From contig JACPWG010000081.1 of NCBI GenBank assembly GCA_016197205.1, forward strand, positions 62,001 through 126,000: DNA of 64,000 nucleotides, in the 5' to 3' direction. The position numbers and the translations under genes were made by a program. Every line of letters starts with the position of its first letter. Position 1 is the stretch's first letter. The DNA is from Planctomycetota bacterium (lineage in GTDB: Bacteria > Planctomycetota > MHYJ01 > WSZJ01 > JACPWG01). The notes beneath the pieces are model-generated. The model did not search any database and had not been told where the DNA came from. It saw only the letters and a program-made list of their open reading frames with translations. Positions 44,621 through 47,311 of the stretch are shown here, one piece after another.

Positions 44621-45004
44621 TTGCCCCACGGACGAGACGAGGGGTCGGACCTGCGATACGCCGCAACGGCATTTCGCGTCGGGCACACATTTCCCTTCCC
44701 AAGCAGTGAACCTTTCCGTGCCGCGCCCGTTTATCTCTCCGTCTTCAAGCTCACGTTCGGGAGCCACGCGCATGTCCATCCTGAGAGGTTTCGCAAAGGC
44801 GAATGGTCGAGGGCGCAGTCTGCGCCCCGAGCAGCGGCAGCCAAAAGCAGCCTGGCCGCTCGCGACCCTCCGCTCGCGCGAAGCCTCGAACGAAGGTCGG
44901 TATCGCCAAGAGACGCGAAACCATCGTTCCGGGTTGGACGTAGCGACGGCCGCTTCAGGGATCTTGACGGAGGCTTGAACCCCGTTTCGAACCGCGCCCA
45001 TCGA
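44621..45004. other. No gene seen upstream of the tRNA array
   Basis: No convincing coding frame, promoter with a good -10 box, or RNA gene could be found here. A TTGACG at 44964 has only a poor -10 partner. The stretch ends in a strong terminator. The rest of the 948-base gap from 44111 is R5 and R8. Confidence 0.5.
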
Positions 45005-45040
45005 GGGCCCTGAAGCGCGAGCTTCAGGGCCCTTTTTTTT
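45005..45040 (+). terminator. Intrinsic terminator in front of the tRNA array
   Basis: A 12-bp stem (45005-45016 with 45021-45032), GCGA loop and eight T residues. It ends only 18 bases before the first tRNA. Confidence 0.9.
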
Positions 45041-45058
45041 GTCCTGGAAGCTCCTCGT

Positions 45059-45130
45059 AGGCCGGTAGGTCAGCAGCCAGACCGGCGGTCTCCAAAACCG
45101 CAGACGGAGGTGCGAGTCCTCCCCGGCCTG
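45059..45130 (+). tRNA. tRNA-Trp(CCA)
   Basis: Acceptor AGGCCGG/CCGGCCT, anticodon loop CTCCAAA, T-loop TGCGAGT (G55). Discriminator G; CCA not encoded. First gene of the array. Confidence 0.9.
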
Positions 45131-45150
45131 TGGTCTCGCGAAGCTCACGG

Positions 45151-45174
45151 AACCGCGACCGTCAGGGAGCGGTC
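45151..45174 (+). repeat. REP-like element (R6)
   Basis: AACCGCGACCGTCAGG...GAGCGGTC between the first two tRNA genes. Confidence 0.7.
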
Positions 45175-45318
45175 TCCGCGCGTGCGCTCTCGCCCGCTGC
45201 TTCAACCTCGCGCTCCGGCGTGCGAGCGCCCTGCGCAACGAGCACGAAAAGAAAACAGCCGGTTCAGCTCCCCGCTCCCCGTCCGTCCCGAGGCCGGCCG
45301 GTGGCGCGGGGCGCGCGC

Positions 45319-45393
45319 GGTGCCTTGGTGTAGCAGTCTGCACGCCTGCCTGTCGAGCAGGAAGCACGGGGGCAGCACCCGTAGGCACCGCCA
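45319..45393 (+). tRNA. tRNA-Asp(GTC)
   Basis: Acceptor GGTGCCT/AGGCACC, anticodon stem CCTGC/GCAGG with loop CTGTCGA. The T-arm is ACGGG/CCCGT with an aberrant loop GGCAGCA. CCA encoded. Confidence 0.85.
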
Positions 45394-45397
45394 GAAC

Positions 45398-45472
45398 TCG
45401 GGGGTCGGCCAACCGGTAGGCCGCCGGGCCCTGACCCCGGAAATGTTGGTTCAAACCCAGCCCCCCGAGCCA
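45398..45472 (+). tRNA. tRNA-Gln(CTG)
   Basis: Acceptor TCGGGGG/CCCCCGA, anticodon stem CCGGG/CCCGG, loop CCCTGAC with C33 instead of U33. Normal T-loop TTCAAAC; CCA encoded. Confidence 0.8.
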
Positions 45473-45473
45473 C

Positions 45474-45545
45474 GGAGGCCTGGCGTAGTAGTCTGCGCGG
45501 CTGGCTGAAGACCAGCAGGTCACGGTGCGATCCCGTGGGCCTCCA
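45474..45545 (+). tRNA. tRNA-Phe(GAA)
   Basis: Acceptor GGAGGCC/GGCCTCC, anticodon stem GCTGG/CCAGC with loop CTGAAGA, T-loop TGCGATC (G55). Discriminator A. Confidence 0.88.
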
Positions 45546-45558
45546 TCCTCGCCGCTCC

Positions 45559-45629
45559 GGGCCCATCGTTCAACAGGAGGACGCGAGACCGGCAGTCTCG
45601 AAATCGGGGTGCGATTCCCCGTGGGTCCA
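45559..45629 (+). tRNA. tRNA-Ala(GGC)
   Basis: Acceptor GGGCCCA/TGGGTCC contains the G3:U70 alanine identity pair. Anticodon stem CGAGA/TCTCG, loop CCGGCAG with C33. T-loop TGCGATT (G55), discriminator A. Confidence 0.82.
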
Positions 45630-45638
45630 TTCGCGAAC

Positions 45639-45721
45639 GGGCGTGCTGCTGAGTGGGATCAGGGCCGGGCCGTAACCCCGGCGCCATCACGAGCTAGGGG
45701 GTTCGATTCCCTACGCGCCCA
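45639..45721 (+). tRNA. tRNA-Tyr(GTA)
   Basis: Acceptor GGGCGTG/CGCGCCC, anticodon stem CCGGG/CCCGG with loop CCGTAAC, and the long variable arm expected of bacterial tRNA-Tyr. T-loop contains TTCGAT. Position 33 reads C in the simplest alignment; the D arm is irregular. Confidence 0.8.
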
Positions 45722-45752
45722 TTCCCGTCGCGCCGAGCGCGGGCTGCGACAC

Positions 45753-45824
45753 TCGGGGGTCGTCCAGCAGGTAGGACGCCTGGCTTTGGACCAGGAGACC
45801 CCGGTCCGAATCCGGGCCCCCGAA
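45753..45824 (+). tRNA. tRNA-Gln(TTG)
   Basis: Acceptor TCGGGGG/CCCCCGA, loop CTTTGGA, T-arm CCCGG/CCGGG with loop TCCGAAT (C55). Discriminator A. Confidence 0.86.
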
Positions 45825-45829
45825 TCCTC

Positions 45830-45900
45830 GGGCCCCTCGTCCAATAGGAAGACGCCGCCTTCGCAAGACGGAAATGCGGGTGCGACTCCCGCGGGGTCCA
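45830..45900 (+). tRNA. tRNA-Ala(CGC)
   Basis: Acceptor GGGCCCC/GGGGTCC with G3:U70. Loop TTCGCAA; one C-A mismatch in the anticodon stem. T-loop TGCGACT (G55). Confidence 0.82.
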
Positions 45901-45930
45901 TGCCTCTTTCGGCACCGCGTGGCTCTTCGT

Positions 45931-46003
45931 GCGGCCGTGGTGGAGCCAGCAACACGTCTCCTTCCCAAGGAGAAGATCGCGGGTGCGAACCCCGCCGGCC
46001 GCT
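45931..46003 (+). tRNA. tRNA-Gly(CCC)
   Basis: Acceptor GCGGCCG/CGGCCGC, anticodon stem TCTCC/GGAGA with loop TTCCCAA, T-loop TGCGAAC (G55), discriminator T. Confidence 0.9.
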
Positions 46004-46007
46004 TCCC

Positions 46008-46079
46008 GCGGACGTGGTGTAGGAGCAACACGCCACCGTGCCAAGGTGGAGATCACGGGTGCGAATCCCGTCGTCCGCT
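46008..46079 (+). tRNA. tRNA-Gly(GCC), array copy
   Basis: Acceptor GCGGACG/CGTCCGC, anticodon stem CCACC/GGTGG with loop GTGCCAA, T-loop TGCGAAT (G55). Same anticodon as the stand-alone tRNA at 2942, which has a normal T-loop. Confidence 0.9.
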
Positions 46080-46105
46080 TGCGCGTCCCCTGCCCACGAC
46101 GCGAA

Positions 46106-46176
46106 CCGCTCGTAGTTCAAGAGCAGAATCGCCGGTCGATAACCGGCAGATCGAGGTGCAAGTCCTCGCGAGCGGA
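46106..46176 (+). tRNA. tRNA-Ile(GAT)
   Basis: Acceptor CCGCTCG/CGAGCGG, anticodon stem GCCGG/CCGGC with loop TCGATAA, T-loop TGCAAGT (G55), discriminator A. Confidence 0.87.
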
Positions 46177-46191
46177 TTGCAGCTCCCACAC

Positions 46192-46266
46192 GCCGGACGA
46201 AGGCGAAGAGACGAGCCCCCTGACTGTGAACCAGGGCCATAGCCGGTGCAAGTCCGGTCGTCCGGC
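46192..46266 (+). tRNA. tRNA-His(GTG)
   Basis: An extra G-1 (46192) pairs with C73 (46266), the histidine hallmark. Loop CTGTGAA; an A-C mismatch closes the anticodon stem. T-loop TGCAAGT (G55). Confidence 0.86.
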
Positions 46267-46271
46267 CTCTC

Positions 46272-46345
46272 CGGGGCGTAGCTCAGTCGTGCAGAGCGCC
46301 TGGTTCGGGACCAGGAGGCCGGAGGTTCAAATCCTCTCGCCCCGA
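46272..46345 (+). tRNA. tRNA-Pro(CGG)
   Basis: Acceptor CGGGGCG/CGCCCCG, anticodon stem CCTGG/CCAGG with loop TTCGGGA, normal T-loop TTCAAAT, discriminator A. Confidence 0.94.
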
Positions 46346-46347
46346 TC

Positions 46348-46418
46348 GGGACCGTCGTCTAGCAGCAGGACGCCTCCGTGACAGGGAGGAAACGGTGGTG
46401 CGATTCCACCCGGGCCCA
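46348..46418 (+). tRNA. tRNA-Val(GAC)
   Basis: Acceptor GGGACCG/CGGGCCC with one A-G mismatch, anticodon stem CCTCC/GGAGG with loop GTGACAG, T-loop TGCGATT (G55). Confidence 0.82.
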
Positions 46419-46435
46419 TGACTTGTTTTGTTTTC

Positions 46436-46507
46436 GCCGCCCTCGTCCAGCAGCCAGGACGCCGCCATGGTAGGGCGGAAACGCGGGTGCGACTCCCGCG
46501 GGCGGCT
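46436..46507 (+). tRNA. tRNA-Thr(GGT)
   Basis: Acceptor GCCGCCC/GGGCGGC, anticodon stem CCGCC/GGCGG with loop ATGGTAG, T-loop TGCGACT (G55), discriminator T. Confidence 0.9.
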
Positions 46508-46511
46508 TCGT

Positions 46512-46603
46512 GGAGGCGTTGGGCATGCGGCAAGCCCACCCCGCTCGAAACGGGAAGGACGCCGATAGGCGCCCTGCAGGTTCGACTCCTGCCGCCTCCG
46601 CCA
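46512..46603 (+). tRNA. tRNA-Ser(CGA)
   Basis: Acceptor GGAGGCG/CGCCTCC, loop CTCGAAA, long variable arm, normal T-loop TTCGACT, CCA encoded. Its last 14 bases recur at 61019-61032. Confidence 0.92.
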
Positions 46604-46610
46604 GCCTCCT

Positions 46611-46823
46611 GGAGACGATGCGGATAGGCAGGGCCCGTAAAGGAATGACTCATGGATCGGCACTCTCGTCGGAGGGAAAAGGCCCTTGTGGTGCAGGCCT
46701 TCCGGCCTGCACAGACTGGCGTGAGTGCCTGACTTGTTCCTTTACGGGCCCTCAGGTGTCCGCACGCGCCTGGAAAGCGCGCCTCCCGCGAGGGAGCTGT
46801 CGGGGCAGCACCGACCGTCTCCG
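46611..46823 (+). tRNA. tRNA-Ser(GGA) split by an insert in the D loop
   Basis: Acceptor GGAGACG (46611-46617) pairs with CGTCTCC (46816-46822), and D-stem GCGGA (46620-46624) with TCCGC (46759-46763). The anticodon stem CGCGC/GCGCG holds loop CTGGAAA; a long variable hairpin follows. The T-arm GTCGG/CCGAC has the aberrant loop GGCAGCA, as in the tRNA-Asp of this array. Removing 46630-46752 restores an 11-base D loop containing GG. Confidence 0.75.
46630..46752. mobile_element. Palindromic 123-bp insert in tRNA-Ser(GGA)
   Basis: The ends are a perfect 16-bp inverted repeat, AGGGCCCGTAAAGGAA and its complement. A second inner pair GGCACTC/GAGTGCC is nested within, and the centre is an R5 hairpin (46688-46711). 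No clear target-site duplication was found. It could be a transposed miniature element or an excised spacer. Confidence 0.72.
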
Positions 46824-46829
46824 TTCCGT

Positions 46830-46921
46830 GGAAGGTCGGCGAAGTTCGGAGCGTCGCACGAGGTTGCTACCCTCGGGTCTCGTGTCGAGACCAGCCGGTT
46901 CGAATCCGGCACCTTCCGCCA
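46830..46921 (+). tRNA. tRNA-Ser(GCT)
   Basis: Acceptor GGAAGGT/ACCTTCC, anticodon stem CGAGG/CCTCG with loop TTGCTAC, long variable arm, normal T-loop TTCGAAT, CCA encoded. Confidence 0.93.
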
Positions 46922-46992
46922 AATTCCAGGGCCCAGGTGACGACCGTCCGCAAACACCCTCTTGGGAGGAAGCCTTCGCCCCCTGCTCCCTC

Positions 46993-47064
46993 GCGCGGCT
47001 GGCCGAGCAGCGAGGCATCCGCCTGCAGAGCGGACCGAGGTCGGTGCGACTCCGACGCCGCGCT
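46993..47064 (+). tRNA. tRNA-Cys(GCA)
   Basis: Acceptor GCGCGGC/GCCGCGC, anticodon stem TCCGC/GCGGA with loop CTGCAGA, T-loop TGCGACT (G55), discriminator T as expected for Cys. Confidence 0.9.
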
Positions 47065-47075
47065 TCGATCGCCGG

Positions 47076-47151
47076 GCTGCCCAAGCTCAAGCAGACGAGC
47101 GGCGCTTTCGTAAAGCGCAGGTTGCGGGTGCAAATCCCGCGGGCAGCTCCA
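47076..47151 (+). tRNA. tRNA-Thr(CGT)
   Basis: Acceptor GCTGCCC/GGGCAGC, anticodon stem GCGCT/AGCGC with loop TTCGTAA, T-loop TGCAAAT (G55), CCA encoded. Confidence 0.9.
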
Positions 47152-47234
47152 CACTTCGCGCTACGCGCTGCGCGCTACGCGCTACGTGTGGCAGGCCACT
47201 ATGGGCCCTGCTCGCTCCGTGTGCTTGGCTTCAC

Positions 47235-47311
47235 TGTGGGGTCGGGTAACGGGTAGCCCGCCTGCCTGTTAAGCAGGAATGGTGTGGGTTCGACTCCCAC
47301 CCCCACAGCCA
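47235..47311 (+). tRNA. tRNA-Asn(GTT)
   Basis: Acceptor TGTGGGG/CCCCACA, anticodon stem CCTGC/GCAGG with loop CTGTTAA, normal T-loop TTCGACT, CCA encoded. Last gene of the array. Confidence 0.94.

Follow-up and report, generated by a model that had tools for sequence, protein, structure and literature searches.

The window analysed here, a 64,000-nucleotide stretch of DNA, carries about twenty tRNA genes arrayed within 2.3 kb, and one member of this array, a tRNA-Ser(GGA) gene, is split in its D loop by a 123-bp insert. The array, the split gene and its neighbours lie as follows:

45058-47311, plus strand: divergent, redundant tRNA array (Trp, Asp, Gln, Phe, Tyr, Gln, Gly, Gly, Ile, His, Pro, Val, Thr, Ser, the split Ser, Ser, Cys, Thr, Asn, and a few tRNAs without isotype)
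46512-46603, plus strand: tRNA-Ser(CGA), the upstream neighbour, with an orthologue in the same-family genome G001 that there stands directly before tRNA-Ser(GCT)
46611-46629, plus strand: 5' part of tRNA-Ser(GGA), which pairs with the 3' part and comprises the acceptor strand GGAGACG (46611-46617), AT, the D-stem strand GCGG(A) (46620-46624) and the start of the D loop
46630-46752, plus strand: palindromic interspersed repeat, MITE-like, 123 bp, with perfect 16-bp terminal inverted repeats (AGGGCCCGTAAAGGAA)
46753-46823, plus strand: 3' part of tRNA-Ser(GGA), with the D-stem strand CCGC, anticodon arm (anticodon 46772-46774), variable arm, T arm and acceptor strand CGTCTCC
46804-46810, plus strand: non-standard T loop GGCAGCA, shared with tRNA-Asp of the array and with many phage tRNAs
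46830-46921, plus strand: tRNA-Ser(GCT), the downstream neighbour, with an orthologue in G001

Read across the insert, positions 46611-46823 form a type II cloverleaf with anticodon GGA that breaks after 46629 and resumes at 46753. Not one mismatch was seen in its stems: the acceptor stem is GGAGACG/CGTCTCC (7 bp), the D stem GCGG/CCGC (4 bp, or 5 counting A/T), the anticodon stem CGCGC/GCGCG around the loop CTGGAAA, the variable arm CTCCC/GGGAG and the T stem GTCGG/CCGAC. The discriminator is G and CCA is not encoded. When both strands of the 64-kb window were scanned for split cloverleaves with D-loop inserts of 60-320 bp, this was the sole match, and six Markov-shuffled windows gave none. 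The original prediction of a tRNA-Ser(GGA) interrupted in the D loop by 123 bp was thus borne out, as was its pairing of the two halves as one gene: the flanking tRNAs end and begin only 7 and 6 bp away, and therefore the halves are not parts of other genes. Neither ARAGORN nor Rfam called the split gene, because of the insert and the T loop GGCAGCA; ARAGORN made no call on the sequence joined without the insert either, which we ascribe to a T loop that is GGCAGCA and not TTCRANY.

The setting of the gene bears on what its loss would cost. The array tRNAs mostly score below the scattered canonical tRNAs of their own genome, and the phage-style array is redundant, since canonical tRNA-Ser(GGA), Ser(CGA), Ser(GCT) and Ser(TGA) genes exist elsewhere in that genome. 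A genome search for another tRNA-Ser(GGA), which the original prediction had proposed, found the canonical copy intact at G000:C56:38635. The interrupted gene belongs to the redundant set by its long variable arm, its GGA anticodon, its position in the array and this canonical copy elsewhere. Orthologues of the array were sought across the order and found only in G001, the one other genome of the family that was examined, where tRNA-Ser(CGA) and tRNA-Ser(GCT) are adjacent with no tRNA-Ser(GGA) between them; because the G001 array runs in this way, we regard the array tRNA-Ser(GGA) as dispensable. The proteins checked in the window are of ordinary chromosomal kinds, including an M48 peptidase, a response regulator, a radical SAM protein and nitrate-reductase-like subunits; none of them belongs to a phage or a plasmid. 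A nearby Fe-S protein has relatives in many different phyla.

Some further features of the tRNA genes were recorded. Just 5' of the array, at 45003-45034, there is a strong terminator-like hairpin with a T run, and two array tRNAs with odd anticodon arms (45830-45900 and 45559-45629) are called by Rfam and not by ARAGORN. A second run of tRNA genes was seen at a contig start (G000:C131:1-1200, locus L090), with Leu, two Pro and four Arg tRNAs, two of the Arg genes being identical; at least one of these tRNAs, Pro(GGG), has a TGCRANY T loop. This run is probably a further array, or belongs with the window array to one set.

The unusual T loop of the split gene raised the suspicion that the tRNA had decayed after the insertion. 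We rejected this, as GGCAGCA is also the T loop of the array tRNA-Asp(GTC) (window 45319-45390), is conserved in the G001 orthologue of that gene (L122) and turns up again in phage tRNAs. When viral contigs were scanned with CGGGGGCAGCACCCG, there were 81 matches in the loci examined, 22 of them at the T-arm position with a 7-bp acceptor stem, and the contigs with such matches carry up to 30 tRNAs each. Under a stricter cloverleaf filter (viral loci L134-L213) there were 27 GGCAGCA tRNAs against 0 for 209 scrambles of equal composition, a control that shows the cloverleaves to be real and, the loci having been selected by the motif, says nothing of how common the loop is. tRNAs carrying the loop had anticodons for Asp, Glu, His, Gly, Pro, Lys, Thr and Met; none of 32 pattern matches for a viral tRNA-Ser(GGA) with GGCAGCA forms a tRNA.

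These tRNAs share a second peculiarity. In the motif-chosen viral loci the D loop holds GG in 100 of 101 tRNAs with U55 and in only 4 of 65 with G55 (Fisher p 2e-39, a value that ignores relatedness). In the G55 tRNAs, whose T loops are TGCRANY or GGCAGCA, AG usually replaces GG in register where the D loop has 7-8 nt; the same pattern is seen in a Microcystis phage array (L254) and in the window array, and the interrupted tRNA-Ser(GGA), with CAGG beside its right junction, is compatible with the G55/AG class. Canonical tRNAs pair residue 18 with 55 and 19 with 56, according to two papers (PMC7609411, PMC7912444). Since residue 18 normally pairs with 55 and the change from GG to AG accompanies G55, the sequence pattern looks like a replacement of G18-pseudouridine 55 by A18-G55, an apparent alternative tRNA elbow. 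We found no mention of a G55/AG elbow in the portions covered of the tRNA reviews and array literature (PMC7609411, PMC7912444, PMC10272220, PMC5966550, PMC12803027), a search that lay mostly outside subscription journals. The near-universal pseudouridine at position 55 could not be formed in such tRNAs, and ARAGORN, a standard tRNA finder, misses part of the G55 tRNAs of arrays and phages. We judged this apparent alternative elbow to be more interesting than the insertion itself.

The insert has the anatomy that had been predicted for it: its ends are a perfect 16-bp inverted repeat (23 bp at 87% when extended), and within them lie both a nested inverted pair and a central hairpin, the latter with a stem of 9 bp:

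46691-46712 (limits approximate), plus strand: central hairpin GTGCAGGCC-TTCC-GGCCTGCAC, common to other repeats in the same genome and in G001

A search for the insert elsewhere in the genome, likewise proposed beforehand, was positive, with about 40 places in the 9.1-Mb genome carrying the 123-bp unit, nearly full length in 20-25 of them and with 73-97% identity. Its 16-bp end motif has 121 matches at no more than 2 mismatches, the reversed control having 15. No other match to the unit contains tRNA sequence, and around the copies examined ARAGORN called no tRNA. An exact 24-mer of the element had no match in named genomes, a set from which records of this genome may have been left out. In some copies (L042-L045, L047) another palindromic repeat, which has ends TTCAAGGTG/CACCTTGAA and further TGCAGGGC hairpins, splits the unit inside its central hairpin, nesting of the kind expected for mobile DNA. 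Related repeats were also noted. A second family of about 256 bp in the same genome (L102-L121) has unlike ends, AGGGCCCGTAAAGAAACAACTC and AGGGCCCGTAAGAAAATAACTTGCTC, which are related to those of the 123-bp unit, the first usually following TT or TA; in G001 (L123-L126) the central hairpin GTGCAGGCCTTCCGGCCTGCAC occurs in inverted pairs about 70 bp apart, without AGGGCCC ends.

The original prediction had allowed that the insert might be a structured element removed from the RNA, and had set it beside bacterial tRNA introns. A genuine intron, whether a group I/II remnant or protein-spliced, would restore the tRNA by precise removal, and its sole support is the position of the insert within an otherwise intact tRNA. 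The core of a group I or group II intron needs more than 123 nt, and Rfam gave no intron match at E-values up to 10, so that both classes are ruled out by size and by the lack of a match. An archaeal-type intron is ruled out by the predicted fold at the junctions, which has no bulge-helix-bulge: where such an intron would show a pair of 3-nt bulges flanking 4 bp, the fold has an internal loop of 3/4 nt. In addition, the other copies of the unit that were examined lie in unrelated places outside tRNA genes. We therefore found nothing in favour of removal from the RNA and consider an intron extremely improbable; the comparison with bacterial tRNA introns was not apt, since the insert is a dispersed repeat.

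A different way in which the gene might survive is that the insert is tolerated. Bacterial 23S rRNA intervening sequences are cut out by RNase III and leave a fragmented rRNA, and an extended D-arm hairpin trimmed by the same enzyme would leave a nicked or two-piece tRNA. Consistent with this, the 213-nt RNA (46611-46823) has a fold z of -8.7, and its minimum-energy fold retains the acceptor, variable and T arms beside the insert, which forms a separate, independent long hairpin; moreover, every stem of the tRNA is intact and AG, the candidate elbow residues, stands 3' of the insert. The repeat itself, however, gives no sign of selection on an RNA hairpin, because its two arms decay independently: in an alignment of 21 copies the arms mutate separately, the covariation term is slightly unfavourable (+1.01) and two-sided change occurs in only two pairs, on which grounds RNA-level selection on the element was rejected. 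Against tolerance also stand the distribution of the unit, a genome-wide repeat not tied to RNAs, the redundancy of the array tRNA-Ser(GGA) and its absence in G001, and the youth of the insertion, owing to which intact stems require no selection. That the insertion is recent follows from the window copy differing from the family consensus at just 2 positions, tied lowest of 21. Overall we think it improbable that the insert is tolerated in this way, and very improbable that a hairpin trimmed by a double-strand RNase would give a two-piece tRNA-Ser(GGA) that works in translation; the geometry of the fold, in which the hairpin stands free, is all that speaks for trimming. If it were so, a mobile DNA repeat would be acting as a bacterial tRNA intervening sequence.

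The flanks of the repeat give some indication of how it moves. Among 20 copies of the unit, T stands at -2 in 12 (p about 1e-6, in a GC-rich genome) and A at +2 in 10 (p about 5e-5), and in 10 the base at -1 equals that at +1 (shuffle p 0.013); a TNA reading of these flanks is post hoc, having been formed on the same 20 flank pairs that give its statistics. Under that reading the insert would be bounded as follows:

46628-46630, plus strand: GCA, left member of a putative 3-bp TNA target duplication, from the flank statistics of 20 copies
46752-46754, plus strand: TCA, right member of the putative duplication, on the same basis

The element proper would then be 46631-46751 (GGGCCC...GGGCCC). 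Only some copies show the putative duplication exactly (TGA/TGA, TCA/TCA); in the window copy it is imperfect (GCA/TCA). As a hypothesis from a weak, post hoc signal, a GGGCCC...GGGCCC element may thus have entered a TNA target that was duplicated over 3 bp. Longer target duplications were rejected, with no excess over shuffled pairs. Elements of the IS5 group (ISL2 and IS1031, with the eukaryotic relatives PIF/Harbinger) make 3-bp TNA duplications, and the putative duplication and the ends starting GGG give the unit a presumed resemblance to them, which we take as a lead only.

We searched for an enzyme with the same ends. The genome has four matches to DDE_Tnp_1, none of them flanked by the ends of the 123-bp unit, and no match to DDE_Tnp_1_2, so no DDE transposase of the IS5/ISL2 type with these ends was found among them. 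There are also five Y1-type matches, and we accordingly weighed a variant in which the repeat belongs to the REP/BIME-type palindromes and owes its movement to a Y1 (RAYT) transposase, and is not a MITE of a DDE element. Palindromic hairpins in high copy and a central hairpin common to different repeat families speak for this variant, as do the Y1-type matches themselves. None of the five Y1 loci, however, bears the ends of the unit or the same central hairpin (L288 has merely a related one), so that the neighbouring Y1 gene with the same hairpin that marks a REP/RAYT pair was not seen, and the long terminal inverted repeats and flanks suggesting a TNA duplication are unlike REPs. We consider the REP/BIME variant unlikely, and the consequence for tRNA-Ser(GGA) is the same under either origin. 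No autonomous partner with AGGGCCCGTAAAGGAA ends was found among the DDE_Tnp_1, DDE_Tnp_1_2 and Y1 loci of this draft assembly (197 contigs), and because no transposase with the same ends was found we call the repeat MITE-like rather than a MITE.

Taken together, the evidence makes it very probable that a recent MITE-like insertion in the D loop inactivated a dispensable array tRNA-Ser(GGA). A non-autonomous palindromic repeat would have entered the D loop recently, mobilised as DNA in trans by a transposase that probably belongs to a group making 3-bp duplications at TNA targets. In the transcript a long hairpin would replace the D loop, so that a working tRNA would no longer be made, a loss that the cell would bear because it can do without the array tRNA. 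The point against inactivation is that all stems are still perfect, as the sequence would also be expected to look were the RNA in use; we attribute the perfect stems to the probable youth of the insertion and not to selection. Of the original proposal that a transposed element had killed the gene, the insertion holds, given the roughly 40 places, the MITE-like anatomy, the lack of covariation and the intact second tRNA-Ser(GGA), while the death of the gene is something we infer. What appeared to be a bacterial D-loop tRNA intron is in this way resolved into a recent mobile-repeat insertion, which suggests that at least one tRNA gene of a redundant array can be lost without obvious cost.

Redundant tRNA arrays are described for the Anabaena trn operon (PMC10272220) and for mycobacterial array units (PMC5966550, PMC12803027). 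The window array is like them in that densely packed, divergent tRNAs supplement a canonical set that is complete, and it differs in that one member is interrupted, many members have G55 in the T loop, and the array sits on a chromosomal contig with phage and plasmid genes absent among the proteins checked.

The insert can be compared with three kinds of element. Like the 23S rRNA intervening sequences, it forms what we take to be a stem in a loop of a structured RNA, but it lies in a tRNA and is a genome-wide repeat. It is unlike the IS5 group in that no DDE_Tnp_1 match carries its ends and DDE_Tnp_1_2 is absent. From bacterial MITEs it differs in having no partner transposase among the DDE_Tnp_1, DDE_Tnp_1_2 and Y1 loci, in the weakness of its putative duplication and in a centre that is an extra strong hairpin; it is like them in being a short, non-coding unit (123 bp) with palindromic, perfect 16-bp ends, dispersed in one genome at about 40 places (121 against 15 end matches) at graded divergence, with nested insertions and T/A-biased flanks that suggest a 3-bp TNA duplication.
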